A stretch of DNA of 64,000 nucleotides, taken from the NCBI GenBank assembly GCA_031253955.1, contig JAIRVJ010000010.1, positions 1-64,000 on the forward strand. The letters run 5' to 3'. How positions within the stretch are numbered: position 1 is the stretch's first letter; every line of letters starts with the position of its first letter. Below the pieces are notes generated by a model that saw nothing but the letters and a program-made list of their open reading frames with translations, had not been told where the DNA came from and did no database searches. Both the position numbers and the translations under genes were made by a program. This stretch comes from Burkholderiaceae bacterium (GTDB taxonomy: Bacteria; Pseudomonadota; Gammaproteobacteria; Burkholderiales; Burkholderiaceae_C). Of this stretch, positions 313-38,692 are shown one piece after another.

Positions 313-1215
313 CTACGTCACCTGTGATACTAGAGACAAGTCATTCAAGATGGCGCGAGCGATGGTTCTGACTGTGGTAGCGATCCTTAATTCGGCCTCT
401 ATCTTGTGAAGCAACCAGCGCGTAGTCTCTATATCGTTGCCGATAGCCTGATGGTCATTTGGGGTCAAGGCTTGGACTGTCCGGGGAGGCTGTAGAAGGT
501 ACATGACGGGACGTGCGTTTGGGAACGCTTCCCTGGCAAGAGTAACGGCCCTCATCCCTTGGCTGAGAGATGCATTGCGGTGATAGTCCGTTTTGTACCA
601 AGCGGATGATATTGTTCCGTAAATATGCCGACCGTCGTTAACAGCCCCTGCGATCTGTATGTCCATCTGCACATTGACGCTATCGCGCTGGGCCGTGACA
701 GGCTGACGCTGCCAAAAGGGTGGATACTCTCGTTGGGCCAGATGAAGATGTCTGCTGATGATGTTCCTTACTTGAGTCCTGACAGGCCGTGTAGCGTACT
801 GGTGGTCTTCGCGATCCACCCTATCTGTAATTTGGTGCCGCCCAAGTGGAACCATACGCAAAAACAGGTCATTTACAATTGATTCCGCCGAGTCCCCCCG
901 AATGAACTTCTCAGGCCCGAATCCAATATTCCATCCCACAGGAAGTGACGATTGGGTTTCCAGCGCGTGCCGGGCTTGGTCAAGCAAAAAGTGTGCATTG
1001 CTGACCGCGTCTTCGTCGTAAAAGCAACCTAGGCCAGTTATGGCCGCGCTAGTGACCAACTGTTCAATTGCTTGGCCATCGTCGCTTCGGAACAGTACCC
1101 CTACGTTAATCCACTCCTGTGCGGCCAAGTCCAGGCAAAGGCGTACCACACGCCATTTGCCAGTGATGCCTGTGGCAGGTGAAATGGCCGCAGTAGCGGT
1201 TAATAGTTCCAACAT
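313..1215 (-). CDS. DUF3037-like protein downstream of a HipA-like kinase
   Basis: A 300-residue protein. An upstream TTG at 1236 is possible, but the ATG at 1213-1215 lies one base after the kinase stop codon and is the natural start. The N-terminal stretch WRVVRLCLDLAAQEWINVGV resembles the start of DUF3037, whose members read '..NVGVvlf..'. No membrane segment, signal peptide or catalytic motif is evident. DUF3037 proteins are often encoded beside HipA-like (HipA_2) kinases, which supports the call. Function unknown; it could be the kinase's partner, substrate or antidote. Third gene of an operon headed by the phage repressor. Confidence 0.55.
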   Translation of the reverse strand: MLELLTATAAISPATGITGKWRVVRLCLDLAAQEWINVGVLFRSDDGQAIEQLVTSAAITGLGCFYDEDAVSNAHFLLDQARHALETQSSLPVGWNIGFGPEKFIRGDSAESIVNDLFLRMVPLGRHQITDRVDREDHQYATRPVRTQVRNIISRHLHLAQREYPPFWQRQPVTAQRDSVNVQMDIQIAGAVNDGRHIYGTISSAWYKTDYHRNASLSQGMRAVTLAREAFPNARPVMYLLQPPRTVQALTPNDHQAIGNDIETTRWLLHKIEAELRIATTVRTIARAILNDLSLVSQVT

Positions 1216-1216
1216 G

Positions 1217-2110
1217 TCATTCGAATAACAACCCAAAGCGTTTGGTCAACAGTGGCCTGATCTGGTCCGGCTGTTGGCGACTGTACAAAAAATGCAACCA
1301 TCGTGCGCTACGTCCAGGCAGTAGTTGGCTGCACCAGTATGAAATTTCAAACAACGTGCGTTGCATCTCTAATTGTGCACTGTCGATAAATTTTACACAG
1401 TTGTCAAGAGCTGGGCAGGAAACGCTGGGCGATGTGCGCTGCTGCGAGAGGTAAGCGTTTTGATGAAGCAAATTCTGGAATTGCTCGCTGGCAAGGTTTT
1501 CAAGTTGGCCATCTGCCCAATAGTCTGGGTACGGCTGCCCTTTCCGATGTAGTAGCAATCCGTGATCAATCAGAACGAAGTCTCGCTGTGCTCTGCGCAC
1601 CAAGTTAAAGCAGTGCCTGTCCGGGTTGGCAACGGCCTCATCAAAAGCAATAGTGTCATCGCAACGTGGCCAAGCACTCTGCTCAGCGACAAGGTCACCT
1701 GTGTTGAATACGCCGCGCGCCGCCGTGTTGGATACTGCTTGAGTCACGAAGCATAAGATTCGACCGTGGGCATCTGGCGTTGGCAGCGAAGTGGGACCGG
1801 TATATGGCGGCAACTCAGGGCAGTTGATCTGGGTGAAAAAAGCGCGCTCCGGGACCGGCAAGCCAGATGCGCGCGCCAATAGCCAGCCTGTTACCTCGTT
1901 GAGAATAAAGGTGGATTGAATTTCATCGCCATATGAGAAGGGCTTGGCGTAACCGTCGAACAGTCCCTCTTCAGAACAGAATCTGGCATGAAGGACAGGA
2001 TTAACGTTGCCATCGCGCCCGTGTGTCCAGTCGTAAGGGGTAATGAACTGCTCTGGCCGAAACAGTTTGACCGCCATATGCTTGGATTGGTAGGCAATCG
2101 GGGCCATCAT
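1217..2110 (-). CDS. HipA-like (HipA_2 type) kinase
   Basis: A 297-residue protein. The N-terminal half has a nucleotide-binding-lobe look (MAVKLF near residue 12; later NEVTGWLLARASGLPVPE, as in HipA-type kinases). The catalytic loop is recognisable as FDEAVANPDRHCFNLV, followed by FVLIDHG as the metal-binding DFG equivalent, so the expected Asp, Asn and Asp residues are kept. It lacks the HipA N-terminal subdomain, as in the short HipA_2 group. Its ATG overlaps the repressor's TGA as ATGA, so translation is coupled. Known HipA kinases phosphorylate translation components; the substrate here is unknown. Confidence 0.72.
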   Translation of the reverse strand: MMAPIAYQSKHMAVKLFRPEQFITPYDWTHGRDGNVNPVLHARFCSEEGLFDGYAKPFSYGDEIQSTFILNEVTGWLLARASGLPVPERAFFTQINCPELPPYTGPTSLPTPDAHGRILCFVTQAVSNTAARGVFNTGDLVAEQSAWPRCDDTIAFDEAVANPDRHCFNLVRRAQRDFVLIDHGLLLHRKGQPYPDYWADGQLENLASEQFQNLLHQNAYLSQQRTSPSVSCPALDNCVKFIDSAQLEMQRTLFEISYWCSQLLPGRSARWLHFLYSRQQPDQIRPLLTKRFGLLFE

Positions 2111-2646
2111 GCTCGATTGATGCTTGTTTTACTGTGAAGCAAAGGCACGAAATCCGACGTCTCCACGGCCAGTTTTAGAAGCGCTTTGGGTTGAGCCAGC
2201 GCCGCCAGCACACGCGCCTTGGCTTGGGCGCTGTCCGGCGCTACCGCCAGGATCGCCAAGTCTTTAGCCAAGCCTTCCCTGGCTTGCTGCGGTTGCGCGG
2301 CAATCGCGCCAATGAGGGCGTCCAGGCATCCCGTGATCGGCAGCAAATCGGGGTGACTTTCGAGGTCGATGGGTTCGGGCGCTGGCTTGACAAATTTTGG
2401 GCCAACACCCGTTGCGATCCATAGCGAAGCATACCCGTTGCCCGATCTTAGTCGGTTGCACGCTTCAATACTGGCCGCTTGCAGTCGATTGGCGACCGCA
2501 ATCTTACCAATGCCCTTGATCGGCTTTGACCCTTTGCCAATCCACTGATAGACGGCAGACTTGCTGATCTCAGCAATTTTTGATACCTGAACAACATCCC
2601 ACTGACACGTCTGCATCAGTTCTGTAATTCGTTCCTGTAGAGACAT
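2107..2646 (-). CDS. CI-like phage repressor (HTH)
   Basis: I start this at the ATG of MSLQERITELM (179 residues); a longer TTG-initiated form to 2691 would run into the promoter facing the other way. The N-terminal HTH reads KIAEISKSAVYQWIGKG. The sentence-like end YASLWIATGVGPK is typical of CI-type repressors of lambdoid and P22-like phages. An extra stretch, ASIEACNRLRSGNG, separates the two and looks like a small insertion. No S24 peptidase motif (SAM...K) is visible, so induction may not be by RecA-stimulated self-cleavage. It lies back to back with a cro remnant, as expected of an immunity switch. Confidence 0.75.
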   Translation of the reverse strand: MSLQERITELMQTCQWDVVQVSKIAEISKSAVYQWIGKGSKPIKGIGKIAVANRLQAASIEACNRLRSGNGYASLWIATGVGPKFVKPAPEPIDLESHPDLLPITGCLDALIGAIAAQPQQAREGLAKDLAILAVAPDSAQAKARVLAALAQPKALLKLAVETSDFVPLLHSKTSINRA

Positions 2647-2684
2647 CATGTAAGCCAGCTTAATGCCAAGTTTAATAAGTACGA

Positions 2685-2713
2685 TTGACAATAATAATAA
2701 GAATGCTTATAAT
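2685..2713 (+). promoter_or_regulatory. PR-like sigma70 promoter and operator region of the immunity switch
   Basis: TTGACA at 2685-2690 and TATAAT at 2708-2713 are both perfect consensus, with an exact 17-bp spacer, pointing into cro. Transcription would begin near 2720, at or just before the cro ATG. The imperfect inverted repeat TGCTTA...TATGCA (about 2704-2722) is a candidate operator half-site pair. Repressor transcription starts leftward from the same interval. Confidence 0.85.
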
Positions 2714-2718
2714 GAAGT

Positions 2719-2806
2719 ATGCACATGAAAAAGTCAGCAGCCATAAATCTCCTCGGCGGGACGGTCTCCGAGGCTGCTCGTGCAATCAAGAACATCACGC
2801 CTGACG
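2719..2806 (+). pseudogene. cro: cro, 5' remnant cut by a deletion
   Basis: The first 29 or so codons (from ATG 2719 or 2725) read KKSAAINLLGGTVSEAARAI, close to the N-terminus of P22-like Cro proteins (KKSDAI.LLGGT...A.AIGIT...VSQW). Just after ITPDA the expected recognition helix stops and terminase sequence begins in a different frame. The reading frame runs on to 3039 as nonsense. The truncated product lacks the DNA-recognition helix and should not work as Cro. Confidence 0.75.
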
Positions 2807-4000
2807 CGCCGCACCGCCGAGGAGCTTGCCTTCGGCCACAACGGGGCGAGCATCCGCGTGGCCACCAGTATGCGCGGAGGCACGATTCACCGCCTGCACG
2901 TCAGCGAGATGGGCAAGATCGGCGCGCGCTTTCCAGAAAAAGCGCGGGAGATTGTGACCGGCTCGATCCCAGCCGTGCCCGAAGGTGGCATCGTGATTGT
3001 GGAATCGACCGCCGAGGGCGCGTCAGGCCGGTTCTATGAAATGGTCAAGCGCGCCAAGGATATGGCCGATGCGCGCCGTCCGCTGACCACGCGAGACTGG
3101 CGGCTGCATTTTTTTGCCTGGTGGGAAGCGCCGGAATACCGGCTTGACCCGCAGGGTGTGCTCGTCACCGACGCCGACCACGCTTACTTCACCGATCTGC
3201 AAGCGCGGCTGCACATCACGTTGGACGAGCGGCAGCGCGCCTGGTATGCCGCCACGCTGGGCGGGGCCGACTTTGCCGGGGAGCGCCCGCTGATGTGGCA
3301 GGAGTACCCCAGCGACGCCGATGAGCCGTTCCGCGTGCCGCGCGAGGGGTGCTACTACACGGCGCAACTGTCGCAGGCGCGGCAAGAGGAGCGCATCGTC
3401 AAGAGCATTCCGGTCGAGCCGGGCGTGCCGGTGAACACGTTCTGGGACATTGGGTCCAACGACAACACGGCGATTTGGCTGCATCAGCGGGTGGGGGTGG
3501 AGGAACGGTTCGTGGGTTTTCACAAGGCCAGTGGCGAGCCGCTGGCGTATTTCGTGAAGTGGCTGCTCGATCGGGGGATGATTTATGGCCGTCACTTTCT
3601 GCCGCATGACGCGGCGGCGCAGCGGCAGGGCACGGCGGCGGACCGCAACCTGAGCGTGCGCGATATGCTGCAAGAGCTGTTGCCGGGCCACCGTTTCGAG
3701 ATTGTGGAGCGCATCGCCTGGGTGCTCGATGGCATTCAGCAAACGCGGCAGGCATTGGCCTCGTGCTGGTTCGACGAAGCCAAGTGCGCCGAGGGCCTGC
3801 GCGATCTGGACAACTACCGCAAGGCGTGGGACGAGCGGCGCGGCACGTGGCGCGATGCACCATTTCACGGGCCGGAGAGCGATGCCGCCGATGCGTTCCG
3901 GCAATTCGGGCAGGCGCGCGCCAGCGGGCTGCTCTCCGGCGCTGGGGCAAGCGCGGCGCGGCGCCCGCGCCGCCGGCGCGTGTCGCCGTGGGCAGTATGA
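2807..4000 (+). pseudogene. Terminase large subunit, C-terminal part (5' deleted)
   Basis: The frame is open from 2780, but terminase similarity begins near TRRTAEELAF. It keeps the end of the ATPase domain (GTIHRLHVSEMGKIGARFPEKAREI is terminase-typical; GGIVIVESTAEG follows) and the whole RNase-H-like nuclease with NTFWDIGSNDNTA and a final SDAADAFRQF. The Walker A half of the motor is missing. With about 398 residues left of a usual 480-550, it cannot power packaging. The frame is +1 relative to cro, so no in-frame fusion is made. Confidence 0.8.
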
Positions 4001-6604: not shown

Positions 6605-9039
6605 GGGCTGTGGCCGCCATCTTTTCTTGCGTCAACCACCAAGCGCCCGGCGACGGGCTGTTCCGTGACGCCGGCGGCGAGCCTGCCGATCCGCCGCAGC
6701 ACCCGATGGACGGCGACGCCATGCGCGCGCTGCACCGCCGGCTGCTGACGTGGCTGAACACCGAGCGCCAGTTGCAGGCGGCAAACCGGCTGGACATGGC
6801 CATTGACGCCGACATGTACGACAACCGCCAATGGATGCCCGAAGACGCCGAGGAAGTGCGCTCGCGCAACCAGGCGCCGTTGGTTTACAACGAAGTGGCA
6901 CCGATGGTGGACTGGCTGATCGGCACCGAGCGGCGCACGCGCATCGATTCTTCCGTGCTGCCGCGCACCGAGGACGACGTGGCGCTGGCGGACGTGAAGA
7001 CCAAGGTCATGAAATACATGGCCGACGTCAACCGCGCCGAGTACGTGCGCTCGACGGCGTTTGCCGAGGCCGTCAAGTGCGGCCTGAGCTGGATCGACGA
7101 CGGCATCCGCGACGATGCCAGCAAGGAGCCGGTGTACAAGCAGCACGAAAGCTGGCGTAATGTGCTGCACGACAGCCGGGCCATTCGCGCGCCCGATCTG
7201 TCGGGCTGCCGCTATCTGCTGCGCTGGCGCGATGTCGATCTGGACGTGGCGCTGGCGATGTTCCCGCAACGCGCGGCGCTGCTGGAGCGCGCCGCCAGCG
7301 ACTATTTGACGGTGGCCGTGCACGATGCCGAGCGCGCCGGCTGGGGCGGCCCCATGCCGCAAGAGGGCGGCGAATCGGCGCGGCTGCGCTACCTCGGTTC
7401 GTCGGGCATGTTCGAGGGCGTGGGCGATTTGCACAGCCGCCGCATCGTGCGCATTTACGAGTGCCAGTACCGCGATCCGGTGACGGTGCAGACGCTCGAA
7501 TCGGGGCCGCTGGCGGGCGCGGCGCTCACGCCGTTCGACCCGGTGGCGTTGCAGGCGGCGCAGCAAGATCAGGGCGCGGGCATCGTGGACAAAACCGCGC
7601 TGCGGATGCACGTGGCGGTGTTCGTGGAGGCCGGGATGCTGGCGGCCAGCCTGGCGCCGTGGCGGCACAACGATTTCAGCCTGACGCCGGTGTGGTGCTA
7701 CCGGCGCTCCAGCGACGGCATGCCCTACGGCGTGATCCGGCGCGTGCGCGACGTGCAGATGGATTTGAACAAGCGCGCGTCCAAGGCGTCGTTTCTGTAC
7801 AACACAAACCAGATCATCGCCGACGAAGACGCCACCGACGATTGGGAGAACCTGCGCGAAGAAGCCGCCGATCCGCACGGCATTCTTATCAAGAAAAAAG
7901 GCGCGGAACTGGCGCTGCGGCGCGACTCCGAGGGCGCGCAAGCCCAGTTGAACATGATGCAACTGGACGCCGCGGCGATCCAGAAAAGCGCGGGCGTGGC
8001 CGACGAGAACCTGGGCCGGCAAACCAACGCCGTCAGCGGCGAGGCGATCAAGGCGCGGCAGTTGCAGGGCAGCGTGGTCACCACCGAGTTGTTCGACAAC
8101 CTGCGCCTGTCCACGCGCGTGAGCGGGCAAAAAGAGTTATCGCTGATCGAGCAGTTCATGACGCAAGAGCGCGTGATCCGCCTGACGGGTAACCGGGGCC
8201 AGTTGCAGTGGGCCAGGATCAACCGGCCGCAAGTGCTGCCCGACGGCTCGGTGCGCTACCTGGACGACATCACCGCCAGCCAGGCCGATTTCGTGGTCAG
8301 TGAGCAGGACTATTCAGGCACGTTGCGGCAGGTCATGTTCGAGCAGCTAAGCAAACTGGCCGCAGGCCAGCCGCCGGCGCTGGCGCTGCGGCTGATGACG
8401 ATGGCCTTCAACTACTCCGACCTGCCCAATCACGAGGCCATCGCGCAGGAGTTTCGCGCCATCACCGGCGAGCCGGATCCCAACCAGCCGCCCACGGACG
8501 GGCAGCAGCAGGCGATGGCCGCGCAACAGGCCCAGCAGATGCAGGCCGTGCAGATGCAGGCGCAGCAGGGGCAACTGGCGCTGGCCGAAACGCAGGCCAA
8601 GGTGCGCGAGATCAACGCCCGCGCCGCCGAACTGGAAGCCAAAACCGCCGCCGCGCAATCGCAAGGCCAACTGGCGCAAGGTCAGGCCGCCGCCGTGCAG
8701 GACGCGGTGATGCAGGTCAGGCTGCAAGCCAGCGCCCAGATCGAACGCCTGCAAGCGCAACTGGCGCACACGCAAGGCGAGATGGCTGCCATGCGCGCGC
8801 GCGCCGACGACCGGGTGCAGGCCGCGCGCATCGCCGCCGCCGCCAGCGTGCGCGTGGCCGAGTTGCGGCTGGCCTCCACCGCGCAGATGGACGAGATTGG
8901 CCGGCGCATCGACGAAATCGCCGGGCGGGTGGATGCGCTCACGAACGTTGCGCCGCTGGCGCCAGAAATTTCCCCAGCCCCGCCCGCCGACGGCGCGGCG
9001 GTTCTTGATCCACTGCCACCACCCAAGGAGAGCGCATGA
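6601..9039 (+). CDS. Portal protein, P22-like
   Basis: 812 residues from a TTG at 6601; GTG at 6610 has better spacing from GGAG at 6596, so the start is uncertain. The block EVAPMVDWLIGTERRTRID, then LLRWRDVDLDVA and MPYGVIRRVRDVQMDLNKRAS, matches P22-type portal proteins, which form the dodecameric DNA gate at one capsid vertex. From about residue 620 on the chain is Gln/Ala-rich coiled coil (QQAQQMQAVQMQAQQGQ), a long C-terminal barrel-like extension. Overlaps the scaffold gene by four bases. Confidence 0.85.
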   Translation: MRAVAAIFSCVNHQAPGDGLFRDAGGEPADPPQHPMDGDAMRALHRRLLTWLNTERQLQAANRLDMAIDADMYDNRQWMPEDAEEVRSRNQAPLVYNEVAPMVDWLIGTERRTRIDSSVLPRTEDDVALADVKTKVMKYMADVNRAEYVRSTAFAEAVKCGLSWIDDGIRDDASKEPVYKQHESWRNVLHDSRAIRAPDLSGCRYLLRWRDVDLDVALAMFPQRAALLERAASDYLTVAVHDAERAGWGGPMPQEGGESARLRYLGSSGMFEGVGDLHSRRIVRIYECQYRDPVTVQTLESGPLAGAALTPFDPVALQAAQQDQGAGIVDKTALRMHVAVFVEAGMLAASLAPWRHNDFSLTPVWCYRRSSDGMPYGVIRRVRDVQMDLNKRASKASFLYNTNQIIADEDATDDWENLREEAADPHGILIKKKGAELALRRDSEGAQAQLNMMQLDAAAIQKSAGVADENLGRQTNAVSGEAIKARQLQGSVVTTELFDNLRLSTRVSGQKELSLIEQFMTQERVIRLTGNRGQLQWARINRPQVLPDGSVRYLDDITASQADFVVSEQDYSGTLRQVMFEQLSKLAAGQPPALALRLMTMAFNYSDLPNHEAIAQEFRAITGEPDPNQPPTDGQQQAMAAQQAQQMQAVQMQAQQGQLALAETQAKVREINARAAELEAKTAAAQSQGQLAQGQAAAVQDAVMQVRLQASAQIERLQAQLAHTQGEMAAMRARADDRVQAARIAAAASVRVAELRLASTAQMDEIGRRIDEIAGRVDALTNVAPLAPEISPAPPADGAAVLDPLPPPKESA

Positions 9040-10130
9040 GTGCCACCGAAAACCAACCCGTCACGCCCCAGACTGGCGCGCCGCCGCAAGAGGCCGCGCC
9101 GCATCTGGATTTGCTTACCGACGCCGAGCGCGCCGCGCTGGCGCTGGAATTGACCGCCGAGGACGGCGAAGGACAGCCCATCGAGGACGGCGAAGAAGAC
9201 GAAGACGGCGCGCAAGGCGAGACTGCCGCTGCCGAACCCGCGCCCAAACCCGCTCCCGTTCCCGCCGCCGCTGAAACCGCTGCCGCCACGGATGCGCCGG
9301 ATGGCAAGGAGGCCGCCGAAATAGCCGCTCCCGCCGCGCTGTCCGAACCCGCACCGGGCGATCCGGCCCCGGCGCAGCCCGCGCCCGTCCCGCGCGCTAC
9401 CGCCGCGCAGCTTCCCGCAGCGGCTTTCAGCTACGAGCTGCCTGCCGATTACCCGGAGCGGGTCAAGGCGCTGGAAGGCAAATTCCTCGATCTGGATCAG
9501 AAGCTGGAAGAAGGCGCGATCGACCAGCAGGACTACAACAAGCAGTTGCGCACGCTCACGCGCGAGCAGTCGGTGCTGGAGAACCTTTCCAGCCGCGCCG
9601 AGATCGCCCGCGACATGGCAAGTCAGGCGCAGGTGCAATTGGTGCGCAACGAGGGCGCGCTGTGGGGCCAGGCCGTGCAGACGCTGGTGTCAGAAATAAA
9701 AGGGCAGGAGGGCGCGCCCGATTACACCGCCGACGCCCGGCTGGCGCAGGCGCTGGGCAAGCAGGTGGAAACGCTGATGGTCGAGCGCGGGCTGGACCCC
9801 GCCCAGCCGGCGCAGGGCAAGCTCGATTTGCTGCGGCAGGCGCACCGCGTGCTGATGTTCATGAAAACCGGGAAGGCGCCCGGCCAGGCTGACGCCAAGC
9901 CGGATGCGCAAGCGGCGGCGCAGGCGATCAAGACAGCGGCGCAGGCGCGCACGCCCGATTTGTCCAGGGCGGCCAAGAGCATTGCCCAGCTTCCGGCAGC
10001 CGATAACGGCGCCGATGGCGGCGAGTTCGCCGACCTGGACAAGCTCAAGGGCGAGAAGCTGGAAACGGCGCTGGAAAAACTGCGGCGCGCCAGCCCGGCG
10101 GCCTACGAGCGTTACCTGTCCGAGGTGTGA
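9036..10130 (+). CDS. Capsid scaffolding protein
   Basis: 364 residues, acidic and Pro/Ala-rich for the first 130, then helical with coiled-coil character (LEGKFLDLDQKLEEGAID...LRTLTREQSVLENLSS). The C-terminal end is charged. Such composition, and the place between portal and major capsid protein, are those of phage scaffolds, which guide procapsid assembly and leave before packaging. No protease gene is seen nearby. Confidence 0.7.
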   Translation: MSATENQPVTPQTGAPPQEAAPHLDLLTDAERAALALELTAEDGEGQPIEDGEEDEDGAQGETAAAEPAPKPAPVPAAAETAAATDAPDGKEAAEIAAPAALSEPAPGDPAPAQPAPVPRATAAQLPAAAFSYELPADYPERVKALEGKFLDLDQKLEEGAIDQQDYNKQLRTLTREQSVLENLSSRAEIARDMASQAQVQLVRNEGALWGQAVQTLVSEIKGQEGAPDYTADARLAQALGKQVETLMVERGLDPAQPAQGKLDLLRQAHRVLMFMKTGKAPGQADAKPDAQAAAQAIKTAAQARTPDLSRAAKSIAQLPAADNGADGGEFADLDKLKGEKLETALEKLRRASPAAYERYLSEV

Positions 10131-10431: not shown

Positions 10432-11565
10432 ATGGCACGCACCGTGATCGGGGTCAACGCCCCCAATGCAGTCAAGCGTTATAGCGCCGCTCTTTGGCTG
10501 GATGTCAGTCAGAAGGCGTATTGGGGCCAGAAGTTTTTCGGCAAGGGCGACAGGTCACAAATGCCGATTCAGATTCTCACGGATCTGGAAAGCGACGCTG
10601 GCGAGGAGGTCAAGTACGACCTGTTGATGGAATTGCGCATGGAGCCGATTGTCGGCGACGATGTGCTGGAAGGCAAGGAAGAACCCTTGCGCTTTTACAC
10701 CGATAGTGTGTACATCGACCAGATGCGCTGCGGCGTGAACACGGGCGGACGCATGACGCGCAAGCGCACGCTGCACGATCTGCGGCAGAAATCCAAACTC
10801 TCGCAGGGCAACTGGTGGGCGCGGTTCATGGACGAACTGTGCTTCATTTACATGTCCGGCGCGCGCGGCGTCAACGAGAACTTCATCCTCAACAAGAAGC
10901 TGGCGCAGATCATGGGCATCAACCCGATCTCGCAACCGGACGCCGAGCATCATTTCTTCGGCAAGGCCGCCACTGATTTCTCCAACCTGGCGCCCACCGA
11001 CACGATGAGCCTGTCGGCCATTGACCGCATGATTACCCGCGCGGGAACGCAGGGCGGCGGCGCGACCGATATTCCGGTGCTGCAACCCACGCGCTGGGAC
11101 GGCGGCGGCGATGAAAACTACGTGCTGGTAATGCACCCGTGGCAGGAGCAGGCGCTGCGCAACGAGGCGGGTGACAACACCTGGCTGAGTTGGAACAAGG
11201 CGCTGACCACGGCGGTGGGCAACAAGTCGCCCATCTTCTCCAACAGCCTGGGCATGTACCGCAATGTGGTGCTGCACAGCCACCGCAACGTGATCCGTTT
11301 CAACAACGCCGGGGCGACGCAAGACGTTCCCGCGGCGCGGGCTTTGTTCATGGGGGCGCAAGCCGGGGTGATTGCGTTTGGTTCGCCGGGCACCGGCAAT
11401 CGAATCCAGTGGTACGAGGACATGGACGACCGGGGCAATCAGGTCGTGATTACGTCCGGTTCCATCTTCGGCATCAAGAAAGCCACCTTCAACATCAATG
11501 GCAAGAAGCAGGACATGGGCGTGTTCGCCCTGGACACCGCCGCAGCCGAGCCGGTTGCGGTCTGA
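10432..11565 (+). CDS. Major capsid protein, N4-gp56 (DUF4043) family
   Basis: A 377-residue protein preceded by a good ribosome-binding site (GGAAAGGA, 8 bases before ATG). The sequence WLDVSQKAYWGQKFFG, the MPIQILTDLESDAGEEVKYDL block and LVMHPWQEQAL are characteristic of the N4-gp56/DUF4043 major capsid family, with the HK97 fold. Predicted to form the capsid shell. It is followed closely by a possible decoration protein. Confidence 0.85.
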   Translation: MARTVIGVNAPNAVKRYSAALWLDVSQKAYWGQKFFGKGDRSQMPIQILTDLESDAGEEVKYDLLMELRMEPIVGDDVLEGKEEPLRFYTDSVYIDQMRCGVNTGGRMTRKRTLHDLRQKSKLSQGNWWARFMDELCFIYMSGARGVNENFILNKKLAQIMGINPISQPDAEHHFFGKAATDFSNLAPTDTMSLSAIDRMITRAGTQGGGATDIPVLQPTRWDGGGDENYVLVMHPWQEQALRNEAGDNTWLSWNKALTTAVGNKSPIFSNSLGMYRNVVLHSHRNVIRFNNAGATQDVPAARALFMGAQAGVIAFGSPGTGNRIQWYEDMDDRGNQVVITSGSIFGIKKATFNINGKKQDMGVFALDTAAAEPVAV

Positions 11566-18212: not shown

Positions 18213-18787
18213 GCATGACCAAAACACTCACGGCGCACGGGCGCGCCCTCGTTTTATGCTCCTGGCTGGCCGCGCTCTCGTACAGCCTGCCGGCTGCCGC
18301 GCAGGGCATTGCCGCCGCCCGTCTGTCCGACGGGTTGAAGCAATACGACCTGGCGTTTGTCGGCTGGTGCATCCTCGTGGCCGTTATCGGCGGCTTTGGG
18401 CGCACGGTGCTCACGCTGCTTTCGCCCGACGTGGCGGTACTGAGCGTGCTGCGCGAGGCGTGGCGCGATCTGCTGATCGCCGCGCTGGCTGGCGCTGCCG
18501 CCGCCGTCATCCTGTACGCCATTCATTCGACGGGGGTCAACCTGCCGGTGCCAGTGGATGTGCTGATTTTGGCAGCCAGCGGCTGGGCGCGCATGGGCTT
18601 TTTCGTGTGGGCAGGCGATGGCGCGCGCATTCTGGCTGACCGGGGCGTGCAGTGGGCGGCTAACAAGTTCGGCGGCAGGCCGCCCTATGGCGAGCTTTAC
18701 CCCGGCCCACGCTGGGACAACACCCACATTCCCCAGCCCGCGCCGCCGTCGCCCTCGCGTGTCGATAACCCGGACCAGATGCCATGA
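18209..18787 (+). CDS. Holin (probable)
   Basis: 192 residues. N-terminal signal-like segment (VLCSWLAALSYSLPAAAQG), then membrane segments at LAFVGWCILVAVIGGFG, LLIAALAGAAAAVILYAI and VDVLILAASGWARMGFFVWA, and a polar Pro-rich C-terminus. Size, topology and position immediately before the lysozyme gene fit an LydA-like phage holin, which forms lesions in the inner membrane to time lysis. The stop overlaps the lysozyme start by four bases. Confidence 0.65.
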   Translation: MSMTKTLTAHGRALVLCSWLAALSYSLPAAAQGIAAARLSDGLKQYDLAFVGWCILVAVIGGFGRTVLTLLSPDVAVLSVLREAWRDLLIAALAGAAAAVILYAIHSTGVNLPVPVDVLILAASGWARMGFFVWAGDGARILADRGVQWAANKFGGRPPYGELYPGPRWDNTHIPQPAPPSPSRVDNPDQMP

Positions 18788-19251
18788 AAGTGCTCTTGAC
18801 CTTGAGCCAGCAGGGGCTGGACCTCATCAAGCAATTCGAGGGCTTTCGCGCCGCACCATACCTGGATGCCGTGGGCATTCCCACCATCGGCTACGGCGCC
18901 ACCTACTACCCCGGCGGGGCGCGCGTGCGCATGACCGATCCGCCGATGACCGAAGCGCACGCCAGCCTCTTGCTCGAAAGCATGGTGCACCGTTTCGCCG
19001 ACGCCATCAACGGCTGCGTGCAGGCGCCGCTGACGCAGCCGCAGTTCGATGCGCTGGTGTGCTGGGCCTACAACGTCGGCATCGAGGCGGCGCGCCACTC
19101 CACACTGGTGCGCCTGCTCAACGAGGGCGACTGCGCCGCCGCCGCCGATCAGTTTCTGCGCTGGAACCGCGCCGGCGGGCGCGAACTGGCGGGCCTGACG
19201 CGCCGGCGCGAGGCCGAGCGGGGGCTGTTTTTGAGCGAGGCGGCGCCATGA
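18784..19251 (+). CDS. Endolysin, GH24 lysozyme
   Basis: 155 residues. The T4-lysozyme/lambda-like catalytic triad is present as E19 in KQFEGFR, D28 in PYLDAVG and T34 in PTIGYG, with the normal E-8-D-5-T spacing. It hydrolyses the MurNAc-GlcNAc bond of peptidoglycan. There is no signal or SAR segment, so release needs the holin. ATGA overlap to the spanin gene. Confidence 0.92.
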   Translation: MKVLLTLSQQGLDLIKQFEGFRAAPYLDAVGIPTIGYGATYYPGGARVRMTDPPMTEAHASLLLESMVHRFADAINGCVQAPLTQPQFDALVCWAYNVGIEAARHSTLVRLLNEGDCAAAADQFLRWNRAGGRELAGLTRRREAERGLFLSEAAP

Positions 19252-19904
19252 ACTTGCTGGGCTGGCTGGTTCCATCCTGGGCCATCGCCCTGGCCGCTGC
19301 CCTTGCGGGCGCGGCGCTGGGCGGCGGGGTGCAGCAGTTGCGCATCGCCAGCTTGCAAACCGAACACGCGCAGTACCGCGAGAAGCAGGCGCTGGCGCTG
19401 GCCGCCGCCGAGAAAGCCGCTCGCCTGGCCCAGGAGGATTTGCAAATCACCCGCAACCAGTTGACCGGCACGGTGGCCGGTATCGACCAGCGAATGACGA
19501 AAGCCAGAGAAGATGCTGCCAAGGAAACTGAAACTCGCCTGCGCGGCATGGCCGCTGGCGCTGTGCGCGTGCGCTACGTCGCCGCCTCCTGCCCCAACCC
19601 CGGTGGTGCTGTGCCCGCCGCTGCCGCTTCCCCCGGCCTGGCTGATGCAGCGGGAATCGACCTCGCTCCAGAGGCTGGACAAGATGTTCAGCTTCTCCGG
19701 CAGTCCCTTGCCGACGACGCCATCCAGATCGGCGGCTTCAAGCAATACGCCCGCGCCGTCGCCGACTACAACCGGGCGGTGACGGGCCGGACCGTCACGT
19801 CTGCGCCGGTTTTCCCTCTCCCCGGCCCTCTCCCGCAAGCGGGAGAGGGGGTCAACAGTCCTCCCGCCGGCGCGGGAGGAGGAGATGGACATGGCGGTCA
19901 TTGA
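19248..19904 (+). CDS. Rz: Rz-like inner-membrane spanin subunit
   Basis: 218 residues, with an N-terminal membrane anchor (SWAIALAAALAGAALGGG) and a long periplasmic coiled coil (residues about 30-110). With Rz1 it would bridge both membranes and fuse them in the last step of lysis. The final 30 residues (FPLPGPLPQAGEG and on) are encoded by a chromosome-type CTCTCCCGC hairpin repeat, so the original C-terminus may have been changed by its insertion. Confidence 0.8.
   Translation: MNLLGWLVPSWAIALAAALAGAALGGGVQQLRIASLQTEHAQYREKQALALAAAEKAARLAQEDLQITRNQLTGTVAGIDQRMTKAREDAAKETETRLRGMAAGAVRVRYVAASCPNPGGAVPAAAASPGLADAAGIDLAPEAGQDVQLLRQSLADDAIQIGGFKQYARAVADYNRAVTGRTVTSAPVFPLPGPLPQAGEGVNSPPAGAGGGDGHGGH
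19513..19782 (+). CDS. Rz1: Rz1-like outer-membrane spanin lipoprotein, nested in Rz
   Basis: 89 residues in the frame shifted against Rz and wholly inside it. It begins with basic residues and a hydrophobic stretch ending in the lipobox LCA|C (Cys20), followed by the proline-rich segment SPPPAPTPVVLCPPLPLPP, both hallmarks of Rz1. After processing it would be a short lipoprotein facing the periplasm. Confidence 0.85.
   Translation: MLPRKLKLACAAWPLALCACATSPPPAPTPVVLCPPLPLPPAWLMQRESTSLQRLDKMFSFSGSPLPTTPSRSAASSNTPAPSPTTTGR
19826..19849. repeat. CTCTCCCGC-type hairpin repeat inside Rz
   Basis: The perfect palindrome CCCTCTCCCGC-AA-GCGGGAGAGGG. The same family occurs in this window at 40560, 42880, 43257-43370 and 50268 on the bacterial side, so this looks like host REP DNA that moved into the prophage. 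Confidence 0.8.
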
Positions 19905-22560
19905 CATTCAGCAGTTCGTCGGTATCGCGCCGCGCGTGCCGCCGCGCGACATGGGGGCCGCTTGCGCGCAGGCGTGCGGCAACCTGCTGGCCACGGCGAT
20001 GGAATTCCGCCCGCTGCAAGAGGACGCGCCGGCGCGCTCCGATCCGGCGTTTGCCGCAGCGCGCACGCTGTACCGCCTCTCGCGCGATGCCCAGGGCAAC
20101 TATCTGGAGGACGATGCCGCCGGCTGGATCGTGGCGCCCGATGCGCGCAGTTACGCCAAGGGCGATTTGCACGACGACGCGACCGAGCGCACCTATTTCA
20201 CGTTCGATGACGGCACGCAAGCAGCGCGCGTGATTGACGCCACGGGCGAGAACCGGCTGCTGGGCGTGCCCGCGCCGGTATCGGTCGCGGTGACGGTGAA
20301 CCAGGGCCATTCGTTCACGCTGGACGATGCGCTCACGTGGGTGTCGGCCACGCTGATTCCGGCCATCGTGCAGGCGCTCAAAGCCTCCAGCACGGAGTAC
20401 CACATCTATCACGGCGCGCCGGTGGCCGGCGCCGATGCCATGTATTGCCTGACGTGGTGGGCCGAGGACGGCGGCTATGGCGTGGCCGGTGTGCCCGCCG
20501 ATCAGGCAGGGGCGCTGCGCGACCCCAGTCTGGCTGGGTTCCAGCAGGGCGGCCAGTGGGTGGTTCCGATCCTGTGTTTTCCGAAATGGGGCGTGGTGGA
20601 TACGGACAAGCTGACTGCCGCGTTGCAGGCCATCGAAGTGCCAAAGGCCGTGGGCGAGGACGGCGCGGGCGGCGGCGCCACTTCGTTCACCGGGGATCAG
20701 GCGCGCACGCTGGCGGGCAAGCTGGCGGCGCTGTTCGATCCTGGCGGCGCTTCTATTGCCAATTTGCGCCAGCAGATGACGGCAGCCGTCAAGGATTTCT
20801 GCGCGGCCATCAGCGCGGCGGCCTCCAGCGCGGGCGCAAGCGATCCGGCGCCGGAGGTTCAGCCGCCCCAAAAGCCCTCGGTGGGCGGCGTGTTCATGTA
20901 TATCCATCCCGACAGCGACTATGGCGAGGGGCTGACACTCACATGGAATAACGGCTACCGGGGCATGATCCAGCAGCAGTACCCGCTCGCGTCCAACCCG
21001 CTCATGCCGCAGTACCTCGCCGAGGGGGACAAAAACAACGCGCTTCACCAAAATACCTTGTGTTACGAATGGTGGCTGTATGAACGGCAACTCGATGAAT
21101 ACAACGCTGCGCAAAACGCCGGCGCCAAGCAAGACGGCCAGAACGCGCAGGAGGCGGCGGCGCTGGTGGCGCGCCTAGCGCAAGACAAGGCGCAAGCGGC
21201 CAGCGTGTACGACCAGATTTGCGGCGAGTACCAGCGCCGCGTGGCTGGCATCACCGATCTGGTGACGGGCCTCATCAACGGCCAGAGCCTGCTGGGCGAG
21301 GGCGGCCTGATCGCCGTGGACGCCGACCGGATCATCGACACGCGCTTTTACATCGCCACCTACGTGACCGACTGGGGCTGGGAGAGCGCGCCTTCGCCCA
21401 TCAGCGCCATGCTGGAAGTCAGCCAGTACGACACGGTGACGGTGCAGGTGCCCAAGCCGCCAGAGGATCGGCAGGTTCTCAAGTGGCGCATCTACCGCAG
21501 CAACGTGGGCACGCAGGATGCGGCCTACCAGTTTGCTGCGGATGCGCTGGCGGCCGACGGGCTGTCGCTCACCGACCAGGTCAAGGGCCAGGCGCTGGGC
21601 GAGGTCTGCCCGACCTTCGGTTGGGCCGAGCCGCCCTATCGCATGGACAACGCCAGCAGCCAGCAGGTCAAGCCGCCCAAGGGGGACGACCCGCACCTGC
21701 GCGGCCTGGTGGCGATGCCCAACGGGATTTTGGCCGGGTTCATCGACAACTACGTGGCCTTTTGCGACCCGTACCACCCGTATGCCTGGCCCATCGAATA
21801 CCAGATCACCACCGAGGCGCCCATCGTCGGGCTGGGGGTGTTCGGCCAATCGCTTTTTGTGGGCACGCGCGGGCATCCTTATGTCATTAGCGGCGCCGAT
21901 TCGGCCAGCATGAGCGCCGTCAAGCTGCCGCAACTGCTGCCGTGCGTGGCCGCGCGCAGCATCGCCGGGGTGGGCGAGGGGGTGATCTATGCCAGCCATG
22001 ACGGGCTGGTGCTGGTCTCCACCGCCGGGGCGCAACTGCTCACCGACGCCTACTACGCGCGCGAGGACTGGCTGGCCCTTGCGCCGCAGACGATCCGCGC
22101 CATCGAGTACGAGGGGGTGTACTACTTCTGGGCGGGCGATGGCGTTTGCCGGGCGCTGGACTTTAGGGCCAAAAAGCTGGTGACGGTAGATTTGCCGCAC
22201 GCCACGGCGCTGCGGCGCGACGAGTTGACGGACGCGCTGTTTGCGGTGCGCGGCCCGCACGTGGTGCGCTGCTTTGCCCAGGGCCGGCGCACCGGGCGCT
22301 GGAAAAGCGGCGTGCAGACGTTCCAGAAACAGGCTCCGCTAGCGTGGGGCGTGGTGCTGGGCGATCAATCCCAGGCGCAGCCGGCCACCCTGCGCTGGTG
22401 GGGCGATGGCAAGCTGCTCGTTGAAAAGCAGGTCACGGGCATCGCGCCGTTTCGCCTGCCGGCGGGCCGCCCGCTGGAGCACGAGGTGGAGATTGAGTCC
22501 GCTGCGCGCATCACGCGCGTGCAACTGGCCAGCAGCACGGCGGAATTGCAGGGCATCTGA
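19885..22560 (+). CDS. Phage tail hub/stabilisation protein (large)
   Basis: 891 residues from ATG 19885 (a second ATG at 19891 has better spacing from GGAGGAGG). The chain is beta-rich with DIQQFVGIAPRVPPR at the start, and PYRMDNASSQQVKPPKGDD, GLVAMPNGILAGFIDNYVAFCDPYHPYAWP and VGTRGHPYVISG later. The last block is characteristic of large podovirus tail proteins that close the tail tube. A central helical part (residues about 240-480) interrupts this. Role inferred from family resemblance and position. Confidence 0.65.
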   Translation: MDMAVIDIQQFVGIAPRVPPRDMGAACAQACGNLLATAMEFRPLQEDAPARSDPAFAAARTLYRLSRDAQGNYLEDDAAGWIVAPDARSYAKGDLHDDATERTYFTFDDGTQAARVIDATGENRLLGVPAPVSVAVTVNQGHSFTLDDALTWVSATLIPAIVQALKASSTEYHIYHGAPVAGADAMYCLTWWAEDGGYGVAGVPADQAGALRDPSLAGFQQGGQWVVPILCFPKWGVVDTDKLTAALQAIEVPKAVGEDGAGGGATSFTGDQARTLAGKLAALFDPGGASIANLRQQMTAAVKDFCAAISAAASSAGASDPAPEVQPPQKPSVGGVFMYIHPDSDYGEGLTLTWNNGYRGMIQQQYPLASNPLMPQYLAEGDKNNALHQNTLCYEWWLYERQLDEYNAAQNAGAKQDGQNAQEAAALVARLAQDKAQAASVYDQICGEYQRRVAGITDLVTGLINGQSLLGEGGLIAVDADRIIDTRFYIATYVTDWGWESAPSPISAMLEVSQYDTVTVQVPKPPEDRQVLKWRIYRSNVGTQDAAYQFAADALAADGLSLTDQVKGQALGEVCPTFGWAEPPYRMDNASSQQVKPPKGDDPHLRGLVAMPNGILAGFIDNYVAFCDPYHPYAWPIEYQITTEAPIVGLGVFGQSLFVGTRGHPYVISGADSASMSAVKLPQLLPCVAARSIAGVGEGVIYASHDGLVLVSTAGAQLLTDAYYAREDWLALAPQTIRAIEYEGVYYFWAGDGVCRALDFRAKKLVTVDLPHATALRRDELTDALFAVRGPHVVRCFAQGRRTGRWKSGVQTFQKQAPLAWGVVLGDQSQAQPATLRWWGDGKLLVEKQVTGIAPFRLPAGRPLEHEVEIESAARITRVQLASSTAELQGI

Positions 22561-25251: not shown

Positions 25252-26949
25252 ATGAGTATTCCGGTTATTTCGTTGCTGGCGGGGCTGGGACACGGCGGGC
25301 TGGATCAATGGAAATTGAACAGACAGTGGGAGAAAGACGATGCCGTTGCCAAGGCGATGGAGAGTTTCCTCAATCCTGACAAGTCCAAGAACGACGCCGC
25401 ACAGCCGTCTCCCGCACAGGCGGACGCAGGCGGCGGTTCGGCGCAGCCGTCCATCTGGCAGCAGATGGGCTTCAATCCGGGACAGTCTCCGCAGCCGCAG
25501 CCCAACTCCGCCGCGCAGGTGGGCAATTACGGGGCGCAAACCAATATTCCGGTTCCCACGCCGTCGGAGCTGATACCGCAATCGCAGCAGCAGGCCGCGC
25601 CGCCGGCACAGGGCGATGGGGCGGGACAGGCGGGCGTGCCCGTTTCTCCAAAATCGGTCGTGCGATTGCCTTTGCCGTGGGACGATCCGGCGCCCGGGGC
25701 GGCCCCGGAACCTTGGTATGGCTCGCTCGTGAGGGCGGCGACAGGCATGGGCGGCGCCGGCGGCCAGTCTCCCGCGCCAGCGCCCGCCGTGGCCGGGCAG
25801 GCGGCGCAACCGCTGCCGGCCTCCATGGGCGATGGCAGCGCCAGCGTGGCCGGGCAAGGCTATGGCCTGCTTTCCGATATCGATGCGCGCAGTTCCCGGG
25901 AGGTGGAACAGGCAAAAAAGCTCGCTATCGCCTTGGCCCGCTCTGGTAACAATGGCGCGGCGATAGCGATGTACAAGCAGGCCCAGGACAAAAAGTACGC
26001 CGTCGAAGACCTGAAGTACGGTATGAGGATTGCCAACGATCCCACGGGCGAGGAGGCGCAAAAACTCTACAAGCTCATTGACGATTCCAAAATTCCCGGC
26101 ACCACTCTCGTTACCGATCCCAAGACGGGGGTCGTCACGCTGCAACTGCAACAGCCCGACGGCGCCAGCAAGGCCATTGCGCTCAGTGGCAAGAATGCCA
26201 TGTACCTGGGCGTGGCGTACAACAGGCTTCAGCGCGGCGACATCGGGGGCTTGACGGATCTGTACAACATCGACAAGGACGTGGTCTCGCACGCCGTGGC
26301 GGGCTACCAGTTCAATGCGCATCTGGCGCAACTCAACAACAGCGCCGCCAACATCAATTCCAACATCGACTACCGCAACCAGCGCGTGGCTATTGATGAC
26401 CGGCGCTACGACGTGCAGGAGCGCCGGATCGATGCGCAACAACAAAAACTCGATACCAAAGACGCGCAAGAAAACGAGCGCCACAGTGCCGCCGCCGCAC
26501 TGGTGCAAGACCCCACCAATCCCGCGCTGCAAGCCAGGTACGCAGCGGCAGGCGGCAGCTTGGCCGACTTGGGGCGCCTGAACGGGGGCGATGGCAACAA
26601 GCCGATGGAAGTCAAGCTGGCCGATGCTTTCCTGCAAGCCGGGATTGCCCCAGACAAGAAATCGGCCATACAGATGGCGATGAATCACAAGGATGACTCT
26701 CCCGACAAGGTGCGCCAGCAGCTTTATCTGGAGCAGCAGAAATTGGGGCTGCCCCACAAGGAGGCCGCGAAAAACACAGATGCCGCGATGCTCTACCTGT
26801 TTCCGCGCTCCAATGCCGCTCCTGCCGCTGGCGGTGCCGCCAGCGGCTCAGTGGGGCCGTCAAAAGCCCAGCTTGAAGTCGGGCAGGTGTACCAGACCGT
26901 CAAAGGCCCGGCGCGCTGGAACGGGAAAATGTTCGAGGCCGTCCAATGA
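25252..26949 (+). CDS. Phage virion/ejection-associated protein (unknown)
   Basis: 565 residues. The N-terminal 190 are Gln/Pro/Ala/Gly-rich and probably disordered. The middle is helical with many Asn/Gln (FNAHLAQLNNSAANINSNID, then RRYDVQERRIDAQQQKLDTK as a coiled coil). The C-terminus is a small beta domain (VGQVYQTVKGPARWNGKMF). It overlaps the giant polyvalent gene by four bases, which suggests joint entry into the virion. No known family recognised. Confidence 0.55.
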   Translation: MSIPVISLLAGLGHGGLDQWKLNRQWEKDDAVAKAMESFLNPDKSKNDAAQPSPAQADAGGGSAQPSIWQQMGFNPGQSPQPQPNSAAQVGNYGAQTNIPVPTPSELIPQSQQQAAPPAQGDGAGQAGVPVSPKSVVRLPLPWDDPAPGAAPEPWYGSLVRAATGMGGAGGQSPAPAPAVAGQAAQPLPASMGDGSASVAGQGYGLLSDIDARSSREVEQAKKLAIALARSGNNGAAIAMYKQAQDKKYAVEDLKYGMRIANDPTGEEAQKLYKLIDDSKIPGTTLVTDPKTGVVTLQLQQPDGASKAIALSGKNAMYLGVAYNRLQRGDIGGLTDLYNIDKDVVSHAVAGYQFNAHLAQLNNSAANINSNIDYRNQRVAIDDRRYDVQERRIDAQQQKLDTKDAQENERHSAAAALVQDPTNPALQARYAAAGGSLADLGRLNGGDGNKPMEVKLADAFLQAGIAPDKKSAIQMAMNHKDDSPDKVRQQLYLEQQKLGLPHKEAAKNTDAAMLYLFPRSNAAPAAGGAASGSVGPSKAQLEVGQVYQTVKGPARWNGKMFEAVQ

Positions 26950-29900
26950 GCGCGGAACTGTTCAGCTACGAGGAAGCGTTTCCGTCTCAGCCTGAACAGT
27001 CTCAATCCGGCACGTTCAGCTACGAGGAAGCGTTTCCAACACCGGCATCCGATACCCAGGTTGTAACCCCGCTGCCGGACGTTCCGCCCACGCCGCGCCA
27101 GCGCGCTTATGACTGGATTGCCAGCGTCACCGGCGCTCCCAATTACGAGCAGGTGCGCAAGGCGGCCAATGACGCCGAGGCCACCGCGATTCTGGCCGGG
27201 CGCTCAGGCGCTGCGGCGCCTGAACCTGACATCACGCCGCAGCAGATCGAAGACGCGCGCCGGATCATCGCCAGCGGCGGTTTTGAAACCACGCCCGGCG
27301 GCGCGGTCATGGGCGCCGGCAAGCATTCCGTGGCGGCGGCCAAGAACCTGCTTCGGCGAGCGGCGCTTGCGCAGATCCAAGCCGTTCAGCTTGCCGGCAA
27401 TCAGGCGTGGGAGCAATCCCGGCAGTCCATAGGCGGCGTGTCGCAGATGCCGCAGATGTTTGCAGAGAACATGTTCAGGTCAGCCACCGGCGGTATTGTT
27501 TCTCCTGTCATCCCCACCACGCCTCATTCACCGCAGGCCGATATTGCCGGGGGATTGGGTGATTTAACCGGTTTTGTTGCAGTCCCGGCGAAGGCCGCCG
27601 CCGGGGTGATCGGTGCAACTCCTGCCGCAAAGTTTCTTGCTCCGGCTGCGGGAGACACCTTTGCCGCCAGCCTTGCGAAAAATATTGCCAGCCAGTCGGC
27701 CACGCTGGGGCTGGCCAGCGCCATGAAGGAAAGCGGCAGCGCCGCGCTGGACTCGACATCGGCGGGCGAAGCGGCTAGCAGGGTGGGGCAGGCAGCTCTT
27801 GGCGGCCTTGAAATGGGCGCTGAATTTGGCCTGGCTGGATCGCTCTTGCCCAAGAACAACCTGGCGCAATGGGCAGGGCGCGCCGCCGCGGTGAGCGCCG
27901 CTCAGGATGCAATCCACGGCGCCACGCCTTGGGATGACCGTCCTCTCCACGAAAAGGTGTTCGATTACGGCGCCAACATCTTTTTCACCAGGCACGGCGA
28001 TGGGCGAATCTCGCCGGCAGCGCGACCGGACATGACTCTCCGGCCACAGCCGGATGCCGTCAAGGCCGAAGGCCAGGCGCTGAAAGATGTGCGCGATGCC
28101 TCGCCCGAAACACCCAAGCCGCAGGAGCCGAAGGCAGAAGATCGTGCGCCAGAGCGCGATTCTGAACCGGATCGAGAGTCCGGCAAGGCTGCCGTGCCTG
28201 GCAATTTCGACTACGGCCAATACACCCGCTACCGCCGCGCGCTGGAAGCAGGCGGGAAGCCCAATCCCAACAGCAGCGCCCTAGGGCCGGATCAGTTCAT
28301 CGCCGGCACGTGGGAAAGGCTGGTCGCCAAATACGAACCGGCGTTGAGCGAGTATTTGTCGCGCGAGGAGTTGCTGGCGCTGCGCACCGATCCGGCCATA
28401 AGCACGGAAATGGTGGCGCATCTGGATCGGGAAAACGCCGCCGCGCTGCGCACCGAAGGCGTGCCGGTGAGCAACGAAACGCTGTACGCGGCGCACCACT
28501 TCGGGGCCAGCAAGTCCGCCCAGTTTTACCGGGCAGCCGCCGATACGCCCACCGAGAGTATTTTCAGCAAGAAAGTGCTTGACGCCAACCCGTACCTGAA
28601 AGGAAAAACCAAAGCGCAGGTGCTGGACAACTGGCGCACGCGGGCGGGCCAGGCGGGCGCGGATGCGCCAGCCGGTGATTTGGCCGATGCGCGCGCCGCG
28701 CCCGAAGCGCCACGCGGACCAGGCGCGCAAGAGGTGCGAGGCGAGGCACGCGGCGCGGGACCGGACGCGGATTTGGGCAGTGAGGCCACCGCCCCCGAAG
28801 CGCGGGACGATCCGTTGCTGGCCCAAGCCCGGGACGAATGGGCCGCACCCGGAGATGAAGCCGGGGCGCCCACGCCGGACGCCGCCCAGGCGGGCCAGCC
28901 GCAAGCCGATGCCGTTTCACGGGAAACCGCCCCGGCTGCCGATTCCAAGTTCCCCGCGGAACGGCAAAACCCACAGCAAAATATTCCAAAAATTATTCCA
29001 GAGGCCGCGCCCGCCAGCAGCCCGGTACAGGCTGCGCTGGGGCGCATCGCCGATGGCGAGCGGGTGCGCGACGTGCTGGCGGGTTTGCCCGACGAGCAGG
29101 CGCGCATGGCGGCCAACGCGATGGGGCGCGACTTTGCCAATACCGCCAAGGCGCAAAACATCGCCCAAAGAATGGCGCAATTGCCGGGCGAGAAACTGGC
29201 CGAGCGGGCGCGTGGCGCTATGGAAAATGTAGCGCAGAAAAGCGCGGCCAAGCTCTCCGAACACCAGCAACCAAGCGCGCCAGCGGCCAACGCGCCGGAG
29301 CACGTGGGTGCGCCACCAGCGCGCCCGGCCAGTGCGGTGGACGGGCATTTGGGCCAGGACAGTGTGGCGCTAGCCGATGGCGGCCAGCCCTTTGCCACGC
29401 GCGAGCAGGCGGCGCAGGCCAAGCGCCTGCAACCGGCCATGCGGGTGGTGCGTGTTGATGGCGGCTGGGCGCTGGCTGACAAGACGCCGGCGCAACTGGC
29501 CGCGCAAGCCAAGGCCGCCAAGCGGCTCGCCGTGGCGCGCACGGGCAAGGCCGATCAGCCGATTGCCGCGCACGAGTTCATCGCCGGTGAAGGGGGCCTG
29601 GCCCGCGCCGTCTCCCACGATCTGGGAGTCGAGGGCAATCCGCGCATCGGCAACCGGTGGCTATACGCTGGCGCTGGCAAGGGCATGACGCTGGAGCGGG
29701 CCACTGAAAAGCTGCACCAGGCCGGCTACATCGGCGAGCACGATCAGAACGCGGCACTGGAGGTCATTCGCGGCAGCCTGTCGCATCCGCGATACACGCC
29801 CGAAGGCTGGCAGCAACTGGCCGAAGCCGAAGGGAAAACGCGCTTCGAGGATCATCTGGCCGCCCGGCAAGAGGAAATGGGCGACCAGGAGCTTGCGCGC

Positions 29901-35867: not shown

Positions 35868-36692
35868 TTAGGCTGCTTTATGTAGCTTCTTGTAGAAGAC
35901 TCTCTTGTTGGCGGCTGATTTGGCACTCGGCTTGACGTATCCGATCAGCATGATCTTGTTAAGCGCGATCAATGCGCCAGGGTCACGATCTTTGAAGTAC
36001 TTCGGCGCGTGGTTAGGAAACCAGTCCACGGCCAGCATGGTTGAAAAGTCCCCAAGATACTCAACGGGGTAGAGCTTTGCCGAAACAACACGACCATCCG
36101 GGAATTCGTGCTCGTATGTTGGCAGTTCGTCTGTGTTGAAGTTTTTCTTGTCCTTGAGGTATTTGCAAAACATGCGGCCATGCGCTATGTCGGGCATCAT
36201 GTTTTCCGGCAGTTGGTAGCCTTGCGCTTCCATCGGGGCAACCAGCCGATTGGTCATCTCCTGCAAAACAGAGAACCAACCATTGGGCACCTTGTGGTAA
36301 TTGAGCATGTGGCGCCGTAGGTGATAGGGCAGCTTGGCAGGCTGCTCTTTCCCGGACATCCAATCGAACACCCATTTGGACACCATGACGGCGAACTGTG
36401 GCGAAAGCCACTGTGCGAGATGAATGGCAACTTGTGGATGAACCCATGTGCCTTGCGCCACGTTGGAGCCTCTAAGTGATTGAATTAATTGGGATATGGG
36501 AATTCCCACATCTGGTTCCAAGGCATCCAAGAACTCTTGTGTTGACTTGAGGCGAGTGTAGTCCGCCATCAACTTGCCGGCAGCCTTGCACATGGCCGTC
36601 GCGTTGATGTATCCATCTGATGTGCGTTGCTCAACGACGGAATTCTGCACGTGGTGCGCGATGAACGGAAGGGATAGTTGATGCGTCGGCAT
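35868..36692 (-). CDS. KilA-N domain protein
   Basis: 274 residues with AAAGGAG nine bases before the ATG. The KilA-N domain covers about residues 15-115: GYINATAMCKAAGKLMADY, then GTWVHPQVAIHLAQWLSPQF and VMVSKWVFDWMSG. This DNA-binding domain occurs in phage antirepressors and lethal genes such as P1 kilA. The C-terminal 150 residues are unlike the common ANT or ORF6C partners and are unassigned. Divergent from a strong rightward promoter 47 bp upstream of its start. Confidence 0.85.
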   Translation of the reverse strand: MPTHQLSLPFIAHHVQNSVVEQRTSDGYINATAMCKAAGKLMADYTRLKSTQEFLDALEPDVGIPISQLIQSLRGSNVAQGTWVHPQVAIHLAQWLSPQFAVMVSKWVFDWMSGKEQPAKLPYHLRRHMLNYHKVPNGWFSVLQEMTNRLVAPMEAQGYQLPENMMPDIAHGRMFCKYLKDKKNFNTDELPTYEHEFPDGRVVSAKLYPVEYLGDFSTMLAVDWFPNHAPKYFKDRDPGALIALNKIMLIGYVKPSAKSAANKRVFYKKLHKAA

Positions 36693-38616: not shown

Positions 38617-38692
38617 TGGCTCCCCGACCTGGGCTCGAACCAGGGACCTACGGATTAACAGTCCGGCGCTCTACCGACTGAGCTATCGGGGA
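38617..38692 (-). tRNA. tRNA-Asn (GTT)
   Basis: 76 nt including an encoded CCA. The acceptor TCCCCGA pairs with TCGGGGA, with discriminator G; anticodon loop CTGTTAA gives GTT; the T-arm contains GGTTCGAGCC. The 3' end faces the integrase, so it is the likely prophage insertion site, with attR in this tRNA gene. Confidence 0.95.

Follow-up and report, generated by a model that had tools for sequence, protein, structure and literature searches.

Probable recent deletion between cro and terL in a defective prophage with Lessievirus-type late genes

The Lessievirus/Bcep22-like podoviruses (BcepIL02, JC1, DC1, BcepMigl and CSP3) share a genome plan in which divergent cI and cro genes are followed by an early region and then by terL. 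The Lessievirus early layout comprises RecT/RecE, O-like and DnaC-like genes with terS far upstream of terL; BcepIL02 has ~17 kb between cro and terL, and its terS is likewise far from terL. The prophage described here follows the same plan and has in common with these phages a Bcep22-type TerL (54–55% amino acid identity), a P22-type portal and capsid, a PAPS-reductase-like gene and a giant polyvalent late protein. It differs from them in that the early region and the N-terminal half of terL are missing and in having an integrase beside a tRNA-Asn gene at its right end, and its cro and cI are unrelated in sequence to those of BcepIL02 and JC1. The Lessievirus early layout is not found, the corresponding segment being absent, and in two other relatives introduced below terS is directly upstream of terL. 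We file the prophage as a relative of Lessievirus and not as a member of the genus.

The window analyzed covers bases 1–64,000 of contig C87 (67,321 bases), from a 2.6 Mb draft genome in 167 contigs (Lampropedia aestuarii belongs to the same GTDB family as this genome). The late region of the prophage ends at 35744, and to its right lie the integrase and then the tRNA-Asn gene, beyond which the genes are bacterial (maf, an rsmI-like gene, sppA, rluC and rne). The phage genes thus include an integrase at a likely attachment site adjoining bacterial genes, while the contig does not reach the other end; a search for attL found none, the left end of the prophage falling within 2.8 kb of the contig start. 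The features at the right end are:

35868 to 36692, minus strand: BstA-like KilA-N protein (phrog_6287, E-value 8e-59; PADLOC BstA, E-value 2e-18)
37482 to 38486, minus strand: tyrosine integrase, right end of the prophage
38617 to 38692, minus strand: tRNA-Asn, likely attachment site, with bacterial genes beyond

BstA is an abortive infection family (PMC8585504). The BstA-like gene lies near the integrase end of the prophage and, here, not beside the repressor.

Two sequences serve as the main points of comparison. The viral contig IMGVR_UViG_3300027891_000193 (L032) is collinear with the window from terL to 35.7 kb, apart from replaced tail, lysis and other genes, at about 80% DNA identity in the conserved parts. 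Unlike the window, it has a full terL (a 556-residue ORF), terS and replication genes, an S24-type CI and a different Cro. The other is a second prophage remnant in the same genome, on contig C140 (locus L009), which resembles the window prophage in its CI helix-turn-helix (HTH), Cro, operators and the middle of terL (82% DNA identity). In contrast to the window, C140 retains the early segment, encodes an S24-type CI and has a terL cut on the C-terminal side.

At the left end of the window, a leftward cI operon faces a rightward promoter and the start of cro, which passes into terL:

313 to 1236, minus strand: gene of the cI operon with no assigned function (phrog_14695; no match in Pfam or PADLOC)
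1217 to 2110, minus strand: gene overlapping cI, with no assigned function (phrog_11186; weak relatives in Moraxella phages Mcat18 and Mcat22)
2107 to 2652, minus strand: CI-type repressor with N-terminal HTH (phrog_8)
2651 to 2662: operator-like site TAAGCCAGCTTA, beside the promoter
2685 to 2713, plus strand: PR-like sigma-70 promoter, TTGACA-17-TATAAT
2698 to 2709: operator-like site TAAGAATGCTTA, inside the promoter and identical in C140
2719 to 2808, plus strand: N-terminal remnant of cro, ~28–30 codons, aligned by eye with the Cro of C140 and Cro-like ORFs beside cI in L124–L126
2799 to 2810, plus strand: deletion junction
2801 to 4000, plus strand: C-terminal part of terL, with the second half of the ATPase and the nuclease domain (~150 residues missing)

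The gene at 1217–2110 was not found in related prophages or viral contigs. A reading of the genes at 313–2110 as a HipA-like/DUF3037 pair found no support in Pfam or PADLOC and was dropped. The window CI is 52–58% identical in amino acid sequence to residues 1–83 of the C140 CI; a search for closer relatives found none in phages, weak ones in genomes and one spurious short match in viral contigs. C140 CI carries a Peptidase_S24 domain, for which the window CI has no Pfam match; the latter is therefore not expected to cleave itself upon DNA damage.

The initial annotation placed an N-terminal Cro sequence behind a perfect promoter, and both parts are borne out. The promoter matches 12 of 12 consensus positions with a spacer of 17, and is the sole perfect one in the 64 kb (both strands, spacing 15–19 bp). 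The frame from 2719 reads MHMKKSAAINLLGGTVSEAARAIKNITPDA, after which likeness to Cro ends; 14 of its first 21 residues are, by eye, the same as in the full-length Cro of C140, which begins MDKSVAIELLGGSTSAAAAAIGITSAAVSQWPDQLPP and matches the Pfam family P22_Cro (E-value 7e-8). Cro-like ORFs also adjoin cI in other genomes of the family (L124–L126). The 30-residue remnant alone has no Pfam match, and the full HTH domain of P22_Cro is not present. The cro ATG lies ~6 bases past the −10 box (2713–2725 in the window; the same in C140), so the transcript would be nearly leaderless. TAAGnnnnCTTA has just two exact matches in the window, at 2651 and 2698, and C140 carries the same pair (L009 5771–5829) at the same 47 bp spacing, with a third, imperfect site between them. 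These shared sites support binding of CI to the promoter region, and the two prophages may be cross-immune through them. C140 has a further exact TAAGnnnnCTTA site at L009 9989, upstream of an ORF at 10043.

Where homology predicts that Cro should continue as VSQWP, the sequence instead enters terminase in another frame, reading LTRRTAEELAFGHNGASIRVATSMRGG. The switch, initially put near 2806, is placed by our alignments at 2799–2810, and DNA homology to terL relatives begins at 2810 in four of the five compared (L032, L033, L034 and C140). Within this interval, CTGACGCG (2801–2808) suits both readings, encoding PDA in the Cro frame and LTR in the TerL frame. The microhomology that had been proposed as a check is thus compatible with the joint: the breakpoints may have shared up to 8 bp, as judged from two protein alignments and not from parental DNA. 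In C140, the longest word common to the two breakpoint neighborhoods is 6 bp.

The terminase translation from the L at 2801 (in the frame of 2780–4000) is 80% identical to that of L032 over 399 residues, and 87% identical to that of C140 over 199. What is missing is a stretch of ~150 residues that includes the ATPase motif KARQLGFST; SEMGK and ESTAEG are kept. Among 103 related terL loci that cover the beginning of the window terL, none shows the junction, a finding that would have counted against a deletion scar. Four of the 103 end at a contig end; in all 99 informative relatives the frame extends at least 116 codons further upstream (median about 156). An exact 34-mer spanning the junction had no match in IMG/VR, a degenerate pattern search for the cro start gave no match, and literature searches found no paper on a junction of this type.

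Alignment to L032 and C140 gives the ancestral order, cI | cro–replication initiator–resolvase–terS–terL, and thereby both breakpoints. In C140 the breakpoint positions in Cro and TerL are ~4.86 kb apart, an interval occupied by a replication initiator (phrog_16167), a RuvC-like resolvase, terS and the N-terminal part of terL with KARQLGFST; the corresponding L032 segment is ~6 kb. By the C140 yardstick the loss would be about 4.9 kb. The annotated loss of replication genes, the small terminase and a Walker A-like motif agrees with what both relatives carry at this position, so that genes essential for replication or packaging are gone. The claim that only the nuclease half of terL was kept, with cII-type control lost, holds for the loss of the N-terminal part; the remnant also retains the last portion of the ATPase domain, with SEMGK and ESTAEG, and no cII gene is identifiable in the relatives' counterpart of the missing segment. 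The N-terminal half of terL is found nowhere else in the assembly except as the divergent C140 copy, and with the L032 segment as query, C140 was the sole collinear match to the missing early segment on other contigs, other matches being small. Another prophage-like contig, C25, has short matches.

Downstream of the junction, the late operon had been described as intact, and from terL to 35744 it is indeed open:

4023 to 35744, plus strand: late region, including the genes below
6610–9039, plus strand: portal
9036–10130, plus strand: gene between portal and capsid
10432–11565, plus strand: capsid
18784–19251, plus strand: endolysin
19248–19904, plus strand: Rz-like spanin
19885–22560, plus strand: internal virion protein
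26946–35744, plus strand: 2932-aa late polyvalent protein with LPD23, LPD3 and MuF_C domains

Genes common to the window and L032 are open, with dN/dS of 0.09–0.41 among those most alike. The remaining part of terL has a dN/dS of 0.18 against L032, and its branch shows no excess dN in comparison with L032, L033, L034 and C140. Because the late genes and what is left of terL are open and under normal constraint, the deletion is probably recent, though the comparison gives no date.

With the sum of this evidence, we consider it likely that a recent deletion in an integrated prophage with Lessievirus-type late genes has left a defective (cryptic) prophage. Illegitimate recombination at a common sequence of up to 8 bp (CTGACGCG), with one end inside cro and the other in the middle of terL, would have removed ~4.9 kb. 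Having lost the replication initiator, resolvase, terS and the first ~150 TerL residues, the element would be unable to copy or package itself. CI, with its homologous HTH and common operators, would repress the promoter that now stands directly upstream of the terL remnant and the late genes. Such decay by early-gene deletion is ordinary for prophages. This would be a clean case of decay by one deletion, in which an intact and a sister copy place both breakpoints. The prophage is not to be expected to yield phage, and its intact structural genes are no sign of completeness.

Misassembly is the chief concern, with the joint 2.8 kb from the contig's left end. A short cI/cro fragment of another prophage could have been joined to this late region, and the step in GC content, from 53% on the left to 66% on the right, also speaks for a chimera and against a deletion. 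The draft of 167 contigs with its several prophage remnants (C140 and C25 lie in the same bin) and an estimated contamination of 4.8% favor a chimera too, and the failure to find attL, or the gene at 1217–2110 in related prophages or viral contigs, counts against the deletion. However, no word longer than about 8 bp is shared at the joint, far below usual assembly overlaps, and in C140 this type of cI/cro and this type of terL occur together in one kind of phage. Low GC is common around phage immunity regions, which weakens the step as evidence. On balance we regard a chimera as unlikely. Recombination between two related prophages, for instance a C140-type early region with this late region, is a still poorer account. 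Two related remnants with overlapping terL parts and shared operators do occur in one genome, but the window cI differs from that of C140 across its whole C-terminal half, the terL genes are 18% divergent with no sequence switch seen within, and the joint does not fall at homologous positions.

That the terminase is naturally split, its C-terminal part being an ordinary separate gene, we reject as hardly credible. PHROGs does divide this TerL into an N-side phrog_26724 and a C-side phrog_2472, but the start of the window ORF falls midway into phrog_26724, at profile position 114 of 192, and not at a family boundary, no N-terminal part other than that of C140 is found in the genome, and no relative is split at that point. 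We think it improbable, too, that the deletion gave a stable element kept for use, in which the CI-controlled promoter would express genes for virion and lysis proteins while neither replication nor packaging took place, and the early half in C140 and the late half in the window, overlapping in terL and sharing operators, would be co-regulated and able to complement each other or recombine.

Returning to the deletion, it is plausible that the late genes are now driven by the promoter at 2685–2713. Nearly every gene from cro to terL in C140 and L032 lies on the same strand as cro, the exception being one small conserved counter-strand gene, an 85-residue ORF (90.6% conserved, vs 71–73% for overlapping frames). 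The deletion would therefore shorten a path at least as much as create one: the promoter may already have read towards the late genes that it now adjoins. On the plus strand from the promoter to 4000 there is a single weak terminator-like site, within the terL remnant, and the region is no richer in terminator matches than shuffled sequence. Of the earlier statement that the promoter is restrained only by CI, the part that stands is CI control of the promoter, to which the operator-like sites point.

The terL of C140 is joined on its cut side to unrelated sequence (L009 186–1277 and 1–205), and no recurrence of the sequence at that contig end was found. As this cut is opposite to that in the window, the parts of terL in the two remnants are complementary and overlap. 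C140 also contains a 745-aa ORF (L009 6517–8754) in which an RDD membrane domain precedes stretches resembling the beginning of the 2932-aa late protein and the window gene at 9036–10130; it may be a chimera or an interference protein.
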